Positions 58,196 through 64,000 of a stretch of 64,000 nucleotides of DNA are shown one piece after another. The DNA is from Sphingomonas psychrotolerans. Its GTDB lineage: Bacteria > Pseudomonadota > Alphaproteobacteria > Sphingomonadales > Sphingomonadaceae. Positions within the stretch are counted from its first letter, which is position 1. Each line of letters begins with the position of its first letter. The DNA lies in assembly GCF_002796605.1 (NCBI RefSeq), contig NZ_CP024923.1, positions 2,893,001 through 2,957,000 of the forward strand, read 5' to 3'. Position numbers and translations under genes: made by a program. The notes under the pieces were generated by a model, which made no database searches, had not been told where the DNA came from, and was given only the letters and a program-made list of their open reading frames with translations.

Positions 58196-59794
58196 CTAAA
58201 CCGATGTCACGCCGGACCACTCCAGTCCAAACCGCGCGAGATATTTGCGCAGCCGATCGGCATCGTTCGCCGACGTCCGGCGAGCGCGCGACGCCGAGAA
58301 GAGCGTGCGGCCGGCTTCGGAAAGCGAGCGGCTCTTCCGGCAGATCCGAATGGTTTCGGCGAGTTGCCCCCGGTCGAACGGATCGATTTCGGCAAGAGCG
58401 TCGGGCGTAAGAATTTCCGTGAGCCCGTCGGCGCCGTCGTCACGCTGCCCGGACCATAGGCGCTTCAGGCGTCCGATCTCGGCCTCGACGCAATCCATGT
58501 CGATGCGGCCCTTGGGGCTGAGCGTTGCCATGCGGGTGACGCTGGCCGCGAGATCGCGGAAATTGCCTGGCCAGGTCGCATCGGGGTTGGTCGCGAAAGC
58601 GAGATAGCTCTGACGCGCCTCCTTGTTGAAGCTGGCACGATCGCCCTCGCGCTCCGCGAAGCGGTCCAGCTCGTAGTCGAGATTGGGTTCGATATCCTCG
58701 CGCCGCTCGGCAAGGCCAGGCAACTGGAACGTCCACAGGTTGAGCCGCGCATAGAGATCGTCGCGAAACCCGCCCGCCGCCACTGCCTCGCCGAGATCGC
58801 GATTGGTGCCGGCGATCAACTGGAACTCCGACGCAGCTTCCTTGTCCGAGCCGACGGGCAGGAACCGCTTGTCCTCGATCGCGCGCAGGATCATCGCCTG
58901 CTCGTCGAGCCCCAGCTCGCCGATCTCGTCGAGAAACAACATGCCCCCATCCGCCGCGCGCAGCAGTCCGGGCCGGTCGGCGACTGCGCCGGTAAAGGCG
59001 CCCTTGCGGTGCCCGAACAACGCGGACATCGCGCTATCGCCCTTCAAGGTCGCGCAGTTCACTTCGACGAAGGGACCCGCGATCTGATGCTTGAGGCGCT
59101 TCAGCTCGTAGATGCGGCGGGCGAGCTGGCTCTTGCCCGCGCCCGTGGGCCCCATCAGCAAAATCGGGGCCTTCGAGCGCAGCGCTACCCGCTCGATCTC
59201 GTCGATCATGCGGTTGAACGCCACGCTCTGCGTCTCGATGCCGGATTTCAGAAAGGAAGTGCCTTCCTGCGCGGCGACGGCGAAGCGCGTGGCGATGCTG
59301 TCGTAGCGTGAGAGATCGAGATCGATCGCAGTCCAGCGCCCGGGCGCGCCTCCGTCCTCGGCACGCTTGGCGGGCTGGGTCTGAAGCAGCCGCCCAGGCA
59401 GATAGCGCGCCTCGGTGAGCAGGAAGAGACAGATTTGCGCGACGTGCGTGCCGGTAGTGATGTGGATCAGATAGTCCTCGGCATCGGGATCAAAGGGCTC
59501 GGCGCGGGCAAAATCGAGCAACTTGCCGTACACTTCCTCGAAGTCCCACGGATCGCTGAAGTCGAGCCGGCGCAGATCGACGCGCGTCTCGGGCGATACG
59601 GACTGGATATCCTCGGCGACATAATCGGCCAGACGGCTATGCGGCGCGCCATGGAGCAGGATGAAGCGATCGACGCGCAGATCCTCGTGCATCGTAAGCG
59701 CTACCGAGGGGCGCCACTTGTTCCAGCGCGTGGGACCGAACTTGCTCGCATCCAGCGTTGATCCGAGAAATCCGATAACAGTCAGAGGTTTCAT
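58196..59794 (-). CDS. rtcR: RNA repair transcriptional activator RtcR (CARF + sigma-54 AAA+)
   Basis: A 532-aa sigma-54-dependent activator. Residues 1 to about 180 are the RtcR-type CARF sensor (core YLIHITTGTHVAQICLFLL, 109-127), known to respond to RNA ends with cyclic phosphates. The AAA+ domain has Walker A GPTGAGKS (215-222), GAFTGA (265-270, sigma-54 contact) and Walker B GMLFLDE (284-290). A C-terminal DNA-binding helical region ends the protein. It is divergent from the repair genes and should act on the -24/-12 promoter at 59943. Confidence 0.95.
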   Translation of the reverse strand: MKPLTVIGFLGSTLDASKFGPTRWNKWRPSVALTMHEDLRVDRFILLHGAPHSRLADYVAEDIQSVSPETRVDLRRLDFSDPWDFEEVYGKLLDFARAEPFDPDAEDYLIHITTGTHVAQICLFLLTEARYLPGRLLQTQPAKRAEDGGAPGRWTAIDLDLSRYDSIATRFAVAAQEGTSFLKSGIETQSVAFNRMIDEIERVALRSKAPILLMGPTGAGKSQLARRIYELKRLKHQIAGPFVEVNCATLKGDSAMSALFGHRKGAFTGAVADRPGLLRAADGGMLFLDEIGELGLDEQAMILRAIEDKRFLPVGSDKEAASEFQLIAGTNRDLGEAVAAGGFRDDLYARLNLWTFQLPGLAERREDIEPNLDYELDRFAEREGDRASFNKEARQSYLAFATNPDATWPGNFRDLAASVTRMATLSPKGRIDMDCVEAEIGRLKRLWSGQRDDGADGLTEILTPDALAEIDPFDRGQLAETIRICRKSRSLSEAGRTLFSASRARRTSANDADRLRKYLARFGLEWSGVTSV

Positions 59795-59836
59795 ACTTAT
59801 ACAATAGGATAAGTTTTGATCCTTTGCGATAGCAAA
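59795..59836. promoter_or_regulatory. Candidate RtcR enhancer-binding palindromes
   Basis: Two inverted repeats lie about 105-150 bp upstream of the sigma-54 promoter: ACTTAT-N8-ATAAGT (59795-59814) and TTTGC-GATA-GCAAA (59823-59836). Activators of this class bind paired palindromes at such distances. The sites are short and unproven. Confidence 0.35.
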
Positions 59837-59942
59837 TTCAAGGTCCTTGGCCCTGTCGCGAGAGAGTGTTTGGACCGAACCTTTCAATAAAAGCAGTGAT
59901 ATTGAGTGCGTTATCAGAATTTCGCAGCCCGCTTCGATAAAC

Positions 59943-59957
59943 TGGCACGCCCCCTGC
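59943..59957 (+). promoter_or_regulatory. Sigma-54 promoter (-24/-12)
   Basis: TGGCACGCCCCCTGC matches TGGCAC-N5-TTGC with one mismatch (CTGC for TTGC). GG and GC are 12 bp apart, as required by sigma-54. It reads toward the Ro60 gene, whose ATG is about 130 bp downstream, and lies between that gene and the divergent rtcR. Confidence 0.7.
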
Positions 59958-60085
59958 GAAGGACATCGGCGTCGGACAGGGCAATCGAACACCCTGACCC
60001 GGCGGCGGACGCGGGGCGGCCGGAATGGGCTGGCCGCCCCCGAGGATTTCACGGCGCCGCACAGGCGCCAGCAGGAGGTTGGACA

Positions 60086-63325: not shown

Positions 63326-63344
63326 AAGGCTCTCGTCAGCCTTT
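63325..63344 (+). other. Small hairpin after rtcB
   Basis: AAAGGCT-CTCGTC-AGCCTTT forms a 7-bp stem right at the rtcB stop. There is no T-run after it, so it is more likely an operon-internal processing or stability element than a terminator. Confidence 0.3.
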
Positions 63345-63378
63345 GGCGCACACCACCATTTTCCCGAAAGGGCCGAAG

Positions 63379-63822
63379 ATGACCATGGACGTAGCGGCCT
63401 GGCAGCAGGCGGGACACCTCTATGTCTGGCGCTACGCGATCCTCAATCGCAGCCGGCGCGGTTGGCATTTCCATGCCGATCGTGTCGGCTGCGAGTCAGT
63501 TGCGGATCTCATCGACCGCATGGTCGCGGGAGGCGAGCCGAGTCACCGCACGCTGGTGCTTGGCTCGGTGACTCCGGAGACCTGGGCCCTGCCGAACTTC
63601 GGCCCGCCCAAGGGGGACCGGTTCGCGCGGCTGCGGATCGAATATTGGCCCGGGCAGGAAACGCTCGGCATCGAGCCGGTCGAAGACCGGCTGGTCCTTG
63701 GACTTGGGGCGAAGCGTGCCCCGTTTCTGCGGGCCGCGCTGATCGACCTGTCGATCGGGCAAAATGATTTCGGCATCGCTCCGTCGGACGACCGGCACGG
63801 CGATCCCTGGATGTTCTGGTGA
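63379..63822 (+). CDS. Unrecognised 147-aa protein in RNA-repair operon
   Basis: A soluble protein with no signal or membrane segment. Landmarks are [20 protein letters not shown] near the N-terminus, a central [18 protein letters not shown], and the C-terminal [32 protein letters not shown] precedes the ATG (an ATG two codons on is an alternative). It lies 53 nt after rtcB and 8 nt before the nucleotidyltransferase gene, so it is almost certainly co-expressed with the repair enzymes. I do not recognise a family, and function is unknown. Confidence 0.75.
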
Positions 63823-63830
63823 GAAGAAAG

Positions 63831-64000
63831 ATGACGCAGGCTGACAAGACCATTCCTCCCGCCGTGCGGCGCGAGATCGAAACCCGCCTCGACCGGATCG
63901 AGGCCGAGCATGGCGTGCGCCTGCTGCTCGCCGTCGAATCCGGCTCCCGCGCCTGGGGCTTTCCCTCGCCCGACAGCGACTATGACGTGCGCTTCCTCTA
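63831..64000 (+). CDS. RlaP-type nucleotidyltransferase (DNA polymerase beta superfamily), 3' truncated by window
   Basis: The first 56 residues are visible. [25 protein letters not shown] has the polymerase-beta-superfamily pattern Gly-Ser ... Asp-x-Asp (SDYDVR) of the RlaP/YcgL-like predicted nucleotidyltransferases, which are recurrent partners of RtcB in RNA-repair operons. GAGAAGAAAG precedes the ATG. The gene continues past the window edge. Confidence 0.85.

Follow-up and report, generated by a model that had tools for sequence, protein, structure and literature searches.

For the reading of a new RtcR-controlled RNA-repair locus, the ligand, the RtcA and RtcB activities and the PNPase link can be taken from studies of Salmonella, E. 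coli and Deinococcus. As far as the cited passages go, the ligand of RtcR is a 5' tRNA half ending in a cyclic phosphate, RtcA and RtcB join in the activation, and the same two enzymes convert the broken ends and seal them (PMC7790460, PMC9879122, PMC9650030), with RtcA carrying out the known end conversion (PMC7790460); in E. coli, RtcA and RtcB bind the CARF domain of RtcR (PMC9650030). The Ro60-type protein Rsr and its Y RNA are linked to PNPase, and the published YrlA domain consists of D, T and acceptor arms (PMC8394870). RlaP is named as a partner of RNA ligases (PMC7824862, PMC6514570) and is predicted to add back, ahead of ligation, the nucleotides that were lost (PMC7824862). Here we analyze a locus of this kind at the end of a 64,000-nucleotide stretch of the Sphingomonas psychrotolerans chromosome (contig NZ_CP024923.1; hereafter the window, G000:C1:2893001-2957000), which we read together with the adjoining genome sequence (L003). 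The gene order is rtcR, divergent from rsr-Y1-Y2-Y3-rtcB-rlaP-rtcA with a gene for a 147-residue protein inserted between rtcB and rlaP, where Y1 to Y3 are three structured RNAs.

The RtcR operon and its conservation

The operon is of a known kind, an RtcR-controlled rsr-yrl-rtcBA RNA-repair operon with RlaP added, and we consider it likely that it works as an inducible tRNA-damage response under RtcR and sigma-54, by the mechanism set out below. We hold this reading because RtcR, RtcB, RlaP and RtcA exceed curated cut-offs, because rtcB and rtcA are present in all complete RtcR loci and the sigma-54 motif is conserved, and because the helices of the Y RNAs covary with a score that 0 of 500 shuffles attain; what the present analysis itself established is the gene content, the promoter motif, the RNA folds by covariation and the conservation. 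RtcR, which has its sole match in the genome in this operon, scores 819.8 bits against the NCBIfam equivalog NF038308 (cut-off 650) and 271.9 bits against PF06956, and keeps the GPTGAGK and GAFTGA motifs. Residues C82, H172, H189, H281 and H337 of RtcB align with the cysteine and histidines of the solved RtcB 1uc2, and we take their roles to be catalytic. The whole RlaP gene product scores 267.1 bits against PF10127 (cut-off 23) with the nucleotidyltransferase motif (GS 38, DSD 48) kept, while RtcA, whose gene overlaps rlaP by four bases, scores 392.5 against NF003246 (cut-off 352) and aligns over 324 residues with the solved cyclase 1qmh. Judged by their sequences, the enzyme parts look intact. 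Rsr matches the Pfam Ro60 vWA family PF25045 (69.4 bits, cut-off 27.7) and PHROG 850 (E 2e-37), and it aligns over its whole length with the solved Rsr 2nvo (E 6.1e-13, residues 19-503). PADLOC matched nothing. All the parts named in an earlier note on this DNA (rtcR, Ro60, three RNAs, rtcB, an unrecognised protein and RlaP) are thus present.

The promoter that the note had predicted at 59943 also finds support among relatives. The form TGGCAC-N5-YTGC occurs once in the window, at 59943-59957 (0.32 expected), and among relatives 51 of 69 distinct regions divergent from rtcR contain the same form, compared with 6 of 3450 mononucleotide shuffles. Here and for the 43 rsr-rtcB regions used below, distinct means that exactly identical regions were removed; near-identical genomes remain. 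Sigma-70 promoters and terminators show no excess over shuffles.

Conservation was assessed in a sample of 397 genomes from the same family, 40 of which, this one included, have RtcR. We read 40 loci (39 from relatives plus our own), of which 36 are complete; L124, L125, L142 and L148 are cut by contig ends, and the partial RtcR matches in G175 and G011 C3 were left out. Both rtcB and rtcA occur in 36 of the 36 complete loci, rsr in 18, rlaP in 11, rsr and rlaP together in nine, and the 147-residue family and a small cysteine-rich protein of beta-tent zinc type (ZnB) in three each. The co-occurrence of RlaP with Rsr in these loci has a Fisher p of 0.027, to which we give no weight because kinship is ignored. 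RlaP itself is found in 14 of 249 family genomes, again with our own included. When the same gene order is looked for in other genomes, the core of rtcR, rsr, rtcB, rlaP and rtcA stands together in 29 of 58 loci that encode an RlaP relative, and two of these 29 (L023, L050) share with the window the placement of the 147-residue gene between rtcB and rlaP. The linkage of RtcR, Ro, Y RNA and RtcB asserted in the earlier note therefore holds, with gene set and order conserved in relatives. Its further remark, that this combination was a variant not seen described, needs trimming, since the partnership of RlaP with RNA ligases is already in print in the passages cited (PMC7824862, PMC6514570) and in Pfam. 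One incomplete locus stands apart: the rsr locus at L148:1632-2820 is divergent (Rsr 51%), contains six matches to the Y RNAs and has an RtcB match that reaches only 26%.

In the proposed mechanism, tRNA-cutting RNases would leave 5' halves with 2',3'-cyclic phosphate ends, and these halves would bind the CARF domain of RtcR and act jointly with RtcA and RtcB to turn on the promoter at 59943. RtcA would then turn 3'-phosphates into cyclic phosphates, and RtcB would seal the halves. For the remaining parts we infer that RlaP would restore nucleotides lost at the broken ends, that Rsr and the tRNA-shaped Y RNAs would either guide PNPase to structured RNAs that are broken or serve as tRNA decoys, and that the 147-residue protein would be an accessory binder. 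Two steps differ from the earlier proposal. There, RtcR was held to sense broken tRNA-like RNAs, and this we do not retain, as in the published account RtcR binds 5' halves of genuine tRNAs that end in a 2',3'-cyclic phosphate (PMC7790460, in the part cited); sealing by RtcB after end processing is right in outline, but RtcA, the known end converter, lies beyond the window edge and was missed.

Several observations weigh against this mechanism. Neither rsr nor rlaP is present in 16 of the 36 complete RtcR loci, and RlaP has to be regarded as optional because 25 of the 36 do without it; moreover, its activity is a prediction in the cited papers. Rsr has no match to Pfam TROVE, the ring part, at E 0.001, and it misses the cut-off of the NCBIfam Rsr equivalog NF041674 (63.3 against 900). 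We therefore file it as Ro60-like, of Rsr type, rather than as the NCBIfam equivalog, and its function may differ. All three RNAs fall under the gathering score of 69 of the Rfam YrlA family RF02553, which is why we call them YrlA-like. Finally, in E. coli a further, translation-linked signal was concluded to be necessary (PMC9650030, in the passage cited).

Table 1. Features of the operon and of its leader in relatives (positions are those of the window unless a locus is named)
Feature	Position	Strand	Description
rtcR	58196..59794	-	CARF-type sensor domain and sigma-54 AAA+ activator
sigma-54 (-24/-12) promoter motif	59943..59957	+	TGGCAC-N5-CTGC, sequence motif only
leader, promoter to rsr	59958..60085	+	128 nucleotides, no tRNA (ARAGORN)
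rsr	60086..61636	+	bacterial Ro60-type protein, metal-site motif DVSGS
Y1	61649..61802	+	class B YrlA-like RNA; Y stems, D helix, anticodon-arm-like helix, T arm, crossing acceptor-like helix
Y2	61820..61953	+	class A; T arm, acceptor-like hairpin and D arm within Y stems, like published YrlA
Y3	61967..62070	+	short YrlA-like RNA, class E; T loop the only tRNA-like signature recognised
rtcB	62099..63325	+	3'-5' RNA ligase, PF01139 430.8 bits
147-residue protein gene	63379..63822	+	family without an entry in the libraries searched
rlaP	63831..64000, continuing in L003 to 8626 (whole gene L003:7832-8626)	+	RNA-ligase-associated Pol-beta nucleotidyltransferase
rtcA	L003:8623-9648 = G000:C1:2957622-2958647	+	beyond the window edge, directly after rlaP
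leader tRNAs of relatives (examples)	L019:4457-4534, L045:4461-4538, L036:4405-4477		

Number, classes and folds of the Y RNAs

Against RF02553 the three RNAs score 21.0 bits (Y1, E 0.064), 64.2 bits (Y2, E 2.1e-14) and 33.3 bits (Y3, E 1.7e-5). A covariance model built from 37 units of relatives (R1; the window's own units excluded, the close relative L018 included, so that E-values are rough) matches Y1 at E 6.1e-8, Y2 at 4.5e-25 and Y3 at 3.9e-9; the next-best hit in the window has E 0.052, and over the whole genome Y1 to Y3 are the model's sole matches. Counting by short sequence patterns, by which some units may be missed or cut, we find 149 units in the 43 distinct rsr-rtcB regions: one unit in one region, two in three, three in 20, four in 13 and five in six. 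Three units, which the earlier note had listed among the features of a variant not seen described, is thus the commonest number in these regions, and the window's three belong to different classes. 'Triplicated' is not an apt word for them, as they differ in architecture.

We class the units by the order of their tRNA-like signatures, and among the 149 units there are 47 in class A, 25 in B, 22 in C, 36 in E, five in F and 14 with none. In class A the order is T arm, acceptor, D arm; in class B it is the 3' half of the D arm, T arm, acceptor, and the 5' half of the D arm; class E has the T signature alone. Y1 belongs to class B, Y2 to A and Y3 to E. For class A we aligned 37 relatives' units with T and D signatures (alignment A3, made without the window, duplicates and units over 150 nucleotides) and find compensatory change in 13 of 26 predicted pairs, chiefly in the acceptor-like hairpin and the upper Y stem; the D-arm pairs are invariant and thus give no covariation signal. 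The fold of Y2, a basal stem with T, acceptor and D arms, is supported by this class A covariation and by its R1 match. In several class A RNAs (L043:5895-6027, L048:2488-2632, L051:6310-6442 and others) TCCACCA stands within the acceptor-like hairpin, which gives the look of one tRNA's 3' end fused to the 5' end of a second.

In the class to which Y1 belongs, two helices come on top of the D, T and acceptor arms of published YrlA: an anticodon-arm-like helix that covaries and an acceptor-like helix that crosses the D helix. The short units of class B were examined in alignment A7, which contains 14 of 16 units, all from relatives (the L020 unit, identical to that of L019, and the L023 unit were left out). 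In these units a full cloverleaf, opened in the D loop and derived from the same sequences on which it was scored, is 99.3% paired, with double-sided changes in 12 pairs. None of 500 shuffles is as high on any measure, and versions of the structure slid along the alignment are 34-54% paired. Double changes occur in four of the six pairs of the anticodon-like helix; the D helix is invariant. ARAGORN calls tRNA-Lys in two A7 units, L024 and L036, which we do not count in support of the permuted fold because the ARAGORN fold is ordinary and unpermuted with a poor D arm (shown for L024). These same two units (L024:6506-6631, L036:6449-6575) have seven-base anticodon-like loops with CUU and UUU, both lysine, and the other A7 members are without such loops.

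The long first units, among them Y1 of the window, were examined in alignment A6 (23 of 26 listed; L052, L057 and L117 were left out as other types). Here 93.2% of the structure is paired, against 35-61% for slid versions, and 15 pairs show changes on both sides. On four of five measures none of 500 shuffles comes as high; on pair types 31 of 500 do. Pairs with double changes number two of four in the D helix and four of four in the anticodon-like helix. The T-stem columns fit part of the rows only (68.9%). The acceptor-like helix pairs the bases just past the upper Y stem with the bases just past the T arm and so crosses the D helix; it is 88% paired, with double changes in three of four pairs. 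A check that uses no alignment, on 17 distinct pairs of stretches, gives a mean best of 4.06 pairs compared with 3.10 (sd 0.20) when shuffled, with 0 of 2000 as high. Weighing against the crossing helix, L127 and L039 have only three pairs, and the best-scoring register differs in L020, L030, L031, L131 and L142.

Since tRNA arm sequences are present and ARAGORN finds tRNAs in four of the 43 regions (L024, L036, L126, L127), one could ask whether the RNAs between rsr and rtcB are simply functionless remnants of tRNA genes. The covariation in the Y stems and in the T, acceptor-like and anticodon-like helices speaks against this, as does where the matches fall: in 48 sources all R1 matches below E 0.01 lie in rsr loci with one exception, a Y RNA in L037 (which is also L136), and our own genome has the operon copies alone. 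We regard decay into remnants as very improbable. The exceptional match, at L037:6521-6643, is strong and is followed directly by rtcB; no rsr was found in its operon, and it is perhaps a leftover after loss of rsr. Weak R1 matches in loci without rsr are seen in L025 (E 0.021) and L063 (0.071).

Within the text cited, PMC7790460 describes the role of Ro60 and the Y RNA as unaddressed by its studies and suggests tRNA decay or competitive inhibition of an anticodon nuclease; it also reports that Salmonella YrlA itself is not cut by the anticodon nuclease.

The slot after rtcB and the leader tRNA

The protein that the earlier note called unrecognised indeed matches no family in Pfam, NCBIfam, PADLOC or PHROGs. 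Its best fold match is a SUFU domain, a weak resemblance; its profile finds weak matches only among Protein Data Bank sequences (STIM1 at 0.005 and 0.016, peptide deformylase at 1.4), a fold search of BFVD gives nothing at E 0.001, and the protein has no evident catalytic set. It is probably an accessory binding protein and not an enzyme. In relatives, the position after rtcB is filled by unrelated small proteins, namely this family, ZnB (for which Foldseek gives nothing at E 0.001), a CPCC protein and another cysteine-rich protein; open frames were checked in RlaP loci whose gap measured 250-1500 bases and in another six loci. The 147-residue family occurs in four of the 397 genomes and lies in the slot in three of the four, and the three strong matches among the four to ZnB are all in the slot. 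On a tree of 65 RtcB rows the family is present in five rows with five changes, at least four of them forced by well-supported branches, and ZnB in seven rows with seven changes, at least five forced. Fourteen loci were left out of the tree by hand, as was any with a short RtcB, and the rlaP and rsr labels are wrong on L076 and L077, which are short loci; the slot labels are untouched. The gene content of the slot thus turns over fast along the RtcB tree.

How should such a protein be placed in the operon? One answer is that it works with RtcB or RtcA as a partner, tuning either ligation or the signalling complex of RtcR, RtcA and RtcB. Its fixed place directly after rtcB fits, even in L133, where rtcR, rtcB, this gene and rtcA are present and no rsr or rlaP was found; the genome has no archease match, and in E. 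coli RtcA and RtcB bind the RtcR CARF domain, according to the cited part of PMC9650030. On the other side, L018, L019 and L024, whose RtcB is 95-97% identical, have gaps of only 117-191 bases at the slot, so RtcB needs no such protein, and a distant homologue (35%) stands alone in a genome outside the RtcR set (G237, L149). We regard a role as partner as possible, though on balance doubtful. A second answer takes the whole locus as a countermeasure cassette against tRNA-cutting RNases, in which repair enzymes are joined by tRNA-shaped decoys (with Y1 mimicking an anticodon arm) and by a swappable 147-residue protein that blocks an RNase. Unrelated proteins sharing a slot with fast turnover, the concentration of both families in that slot, the lack of an evident catalytic set and the SUFU match all lean this way, SuFu domains being immunity proteins in polymorphic toxin systems (PMC3482391, in the passage cited). 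We nevertheless think it unlikely, and the 147-residue protein as antagonist of an attacking RNase is the boldest of the readings.

The stretch between rtcR and the first gene of the operon adds a further feature in relatives. ARAGORN finds a tRNA on the operon strand there in 21 of the 69 distinct regions (13 of 44 rsr-first and eight of 25 rtcB-first operons): 19 are a divergent form of tRNA-Pro(UGG), one is tRNA-Trp(CCA) and one is without an assigned type. The tRNA lies downstream of the sigma-54 motif wherever the motif is found (17 of 21). Of 18 aligned leader tRNAs, 17 have an encoded CCA end, and in ten rsr-first loci the tRNA ends in CCA 17-24 bases before rsr. An ordinary tRNA-Pro(UGG) gene, 75-80% identical to the leader copy, stands elsewhere in the genome (four genomes searched). 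Neither the window nor its nearest fetched relative, L018, has a leader tRNA. The window leader folds at -65.3 kcal/mol, a value taken without a shuffle control; the thought that it is a decayed tRNA was set aside, there being no ARAGORN call and only this strong fold. The presence of a tRNA in 21 of 69 leaders fits the tRNA-damage reading, in which tRNA is the thing at stake.

Taken to its furthest, the sphingomonad RtcR operon would be a whole counter-tRNase kit of repair enzymes, decoy Y RNAs, leader tRNA-Pro(UGG) and an RNase-neutralising slot protein. The Y RNAs would jointly mimic most tRNA parts including the anticodon arm, and the leader tRNA of many relatives would serve as spare or decoy. 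We offer this speculatively and think it more probably wrong than right by some distance. Even so, the anticodon-like Y RNA helix, the leader tRNA-Pro(UGG) and the fast-changing slot make the decoy and counter-RNase idea directly testable: one can ask which tRNA the nuclease cuts, whether it is bound by Y1, and what partner the slot protein has.

Outside the operon, an integrase-like frame (recognised by eye) and a tRNA-Ser(GGA) lie at L003:9805-10292, about 0.2-0.6 kb past rtcA; the tRNA-Ser is on the opposite strand, 0.55 kb past rtcA, with the integrase-like frame between, and the region is a possible insertion site. Compared with loci of other genomes, the left flank matched none and the right flank only L018 and short pieces of L120. 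A mobile island was considered as a reading and set aside. Elsewhere in the window there is a ZMP/ZTP riboswitch (16517-16597, minus strand; 55.3 against an Rfam gathering score of 39). The genome also has a second RtcB (G000:C1:510373-511383; L160:3245-4968) beside a small GGQ release-factor-like protein, a pair that we take, by eye, to be of the RtcB2-PrfH type.

Comparison with described systems

What we take as new, within the limits of the literature consulted, are the class B Y RNAs, the slot after rtcB and the leader tRNA, whereas the operon as such varies a known kind. In the literature searched, no title or abstract opening shows the gene order, the Y RNA classes or the leader tRNA, and we do not claim absence from print.

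The RtcB2-PrfH operon, which we compare by title only, is likewise RtcB-based, but here it would be a separate locus, with the RtcR and Y RNA matches solely in the operon described above. In the counter-RNase repair systems of Burroughs and Aravind, RlaP adjoins an RNA ligase as it does here; we draw this likeness through passages of citing papers (PMC7824862, PMC6514570). Among the RNAs, Y2 resembles YrlA (RF02553) in its basal stem with T, acceptor-like and D arms (PMC8394870, in the part cited), whereas Y1 adds the anticodon-arm-like and crossing acceptor-like helices and Y3 keeps the T-loop signature alone. The rsr-yrlBA-rtcBA operon of Salmonella Typhimurium, as the cited passages describe it, shares the divergent rtcR and the sigma-54 promoter before rsr (PMC7790460, PMC9879122), as well as the Y RNAs between rsr and rtcB and the final position of rtcA. 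Where that operon has two Y units, the Sphingomonas locus has three, each with its own architecture, and it differs further in an Rsr under the equivalog cut-off and in the 147-residue gene and rlaP that lie between rtcB and rtcA.

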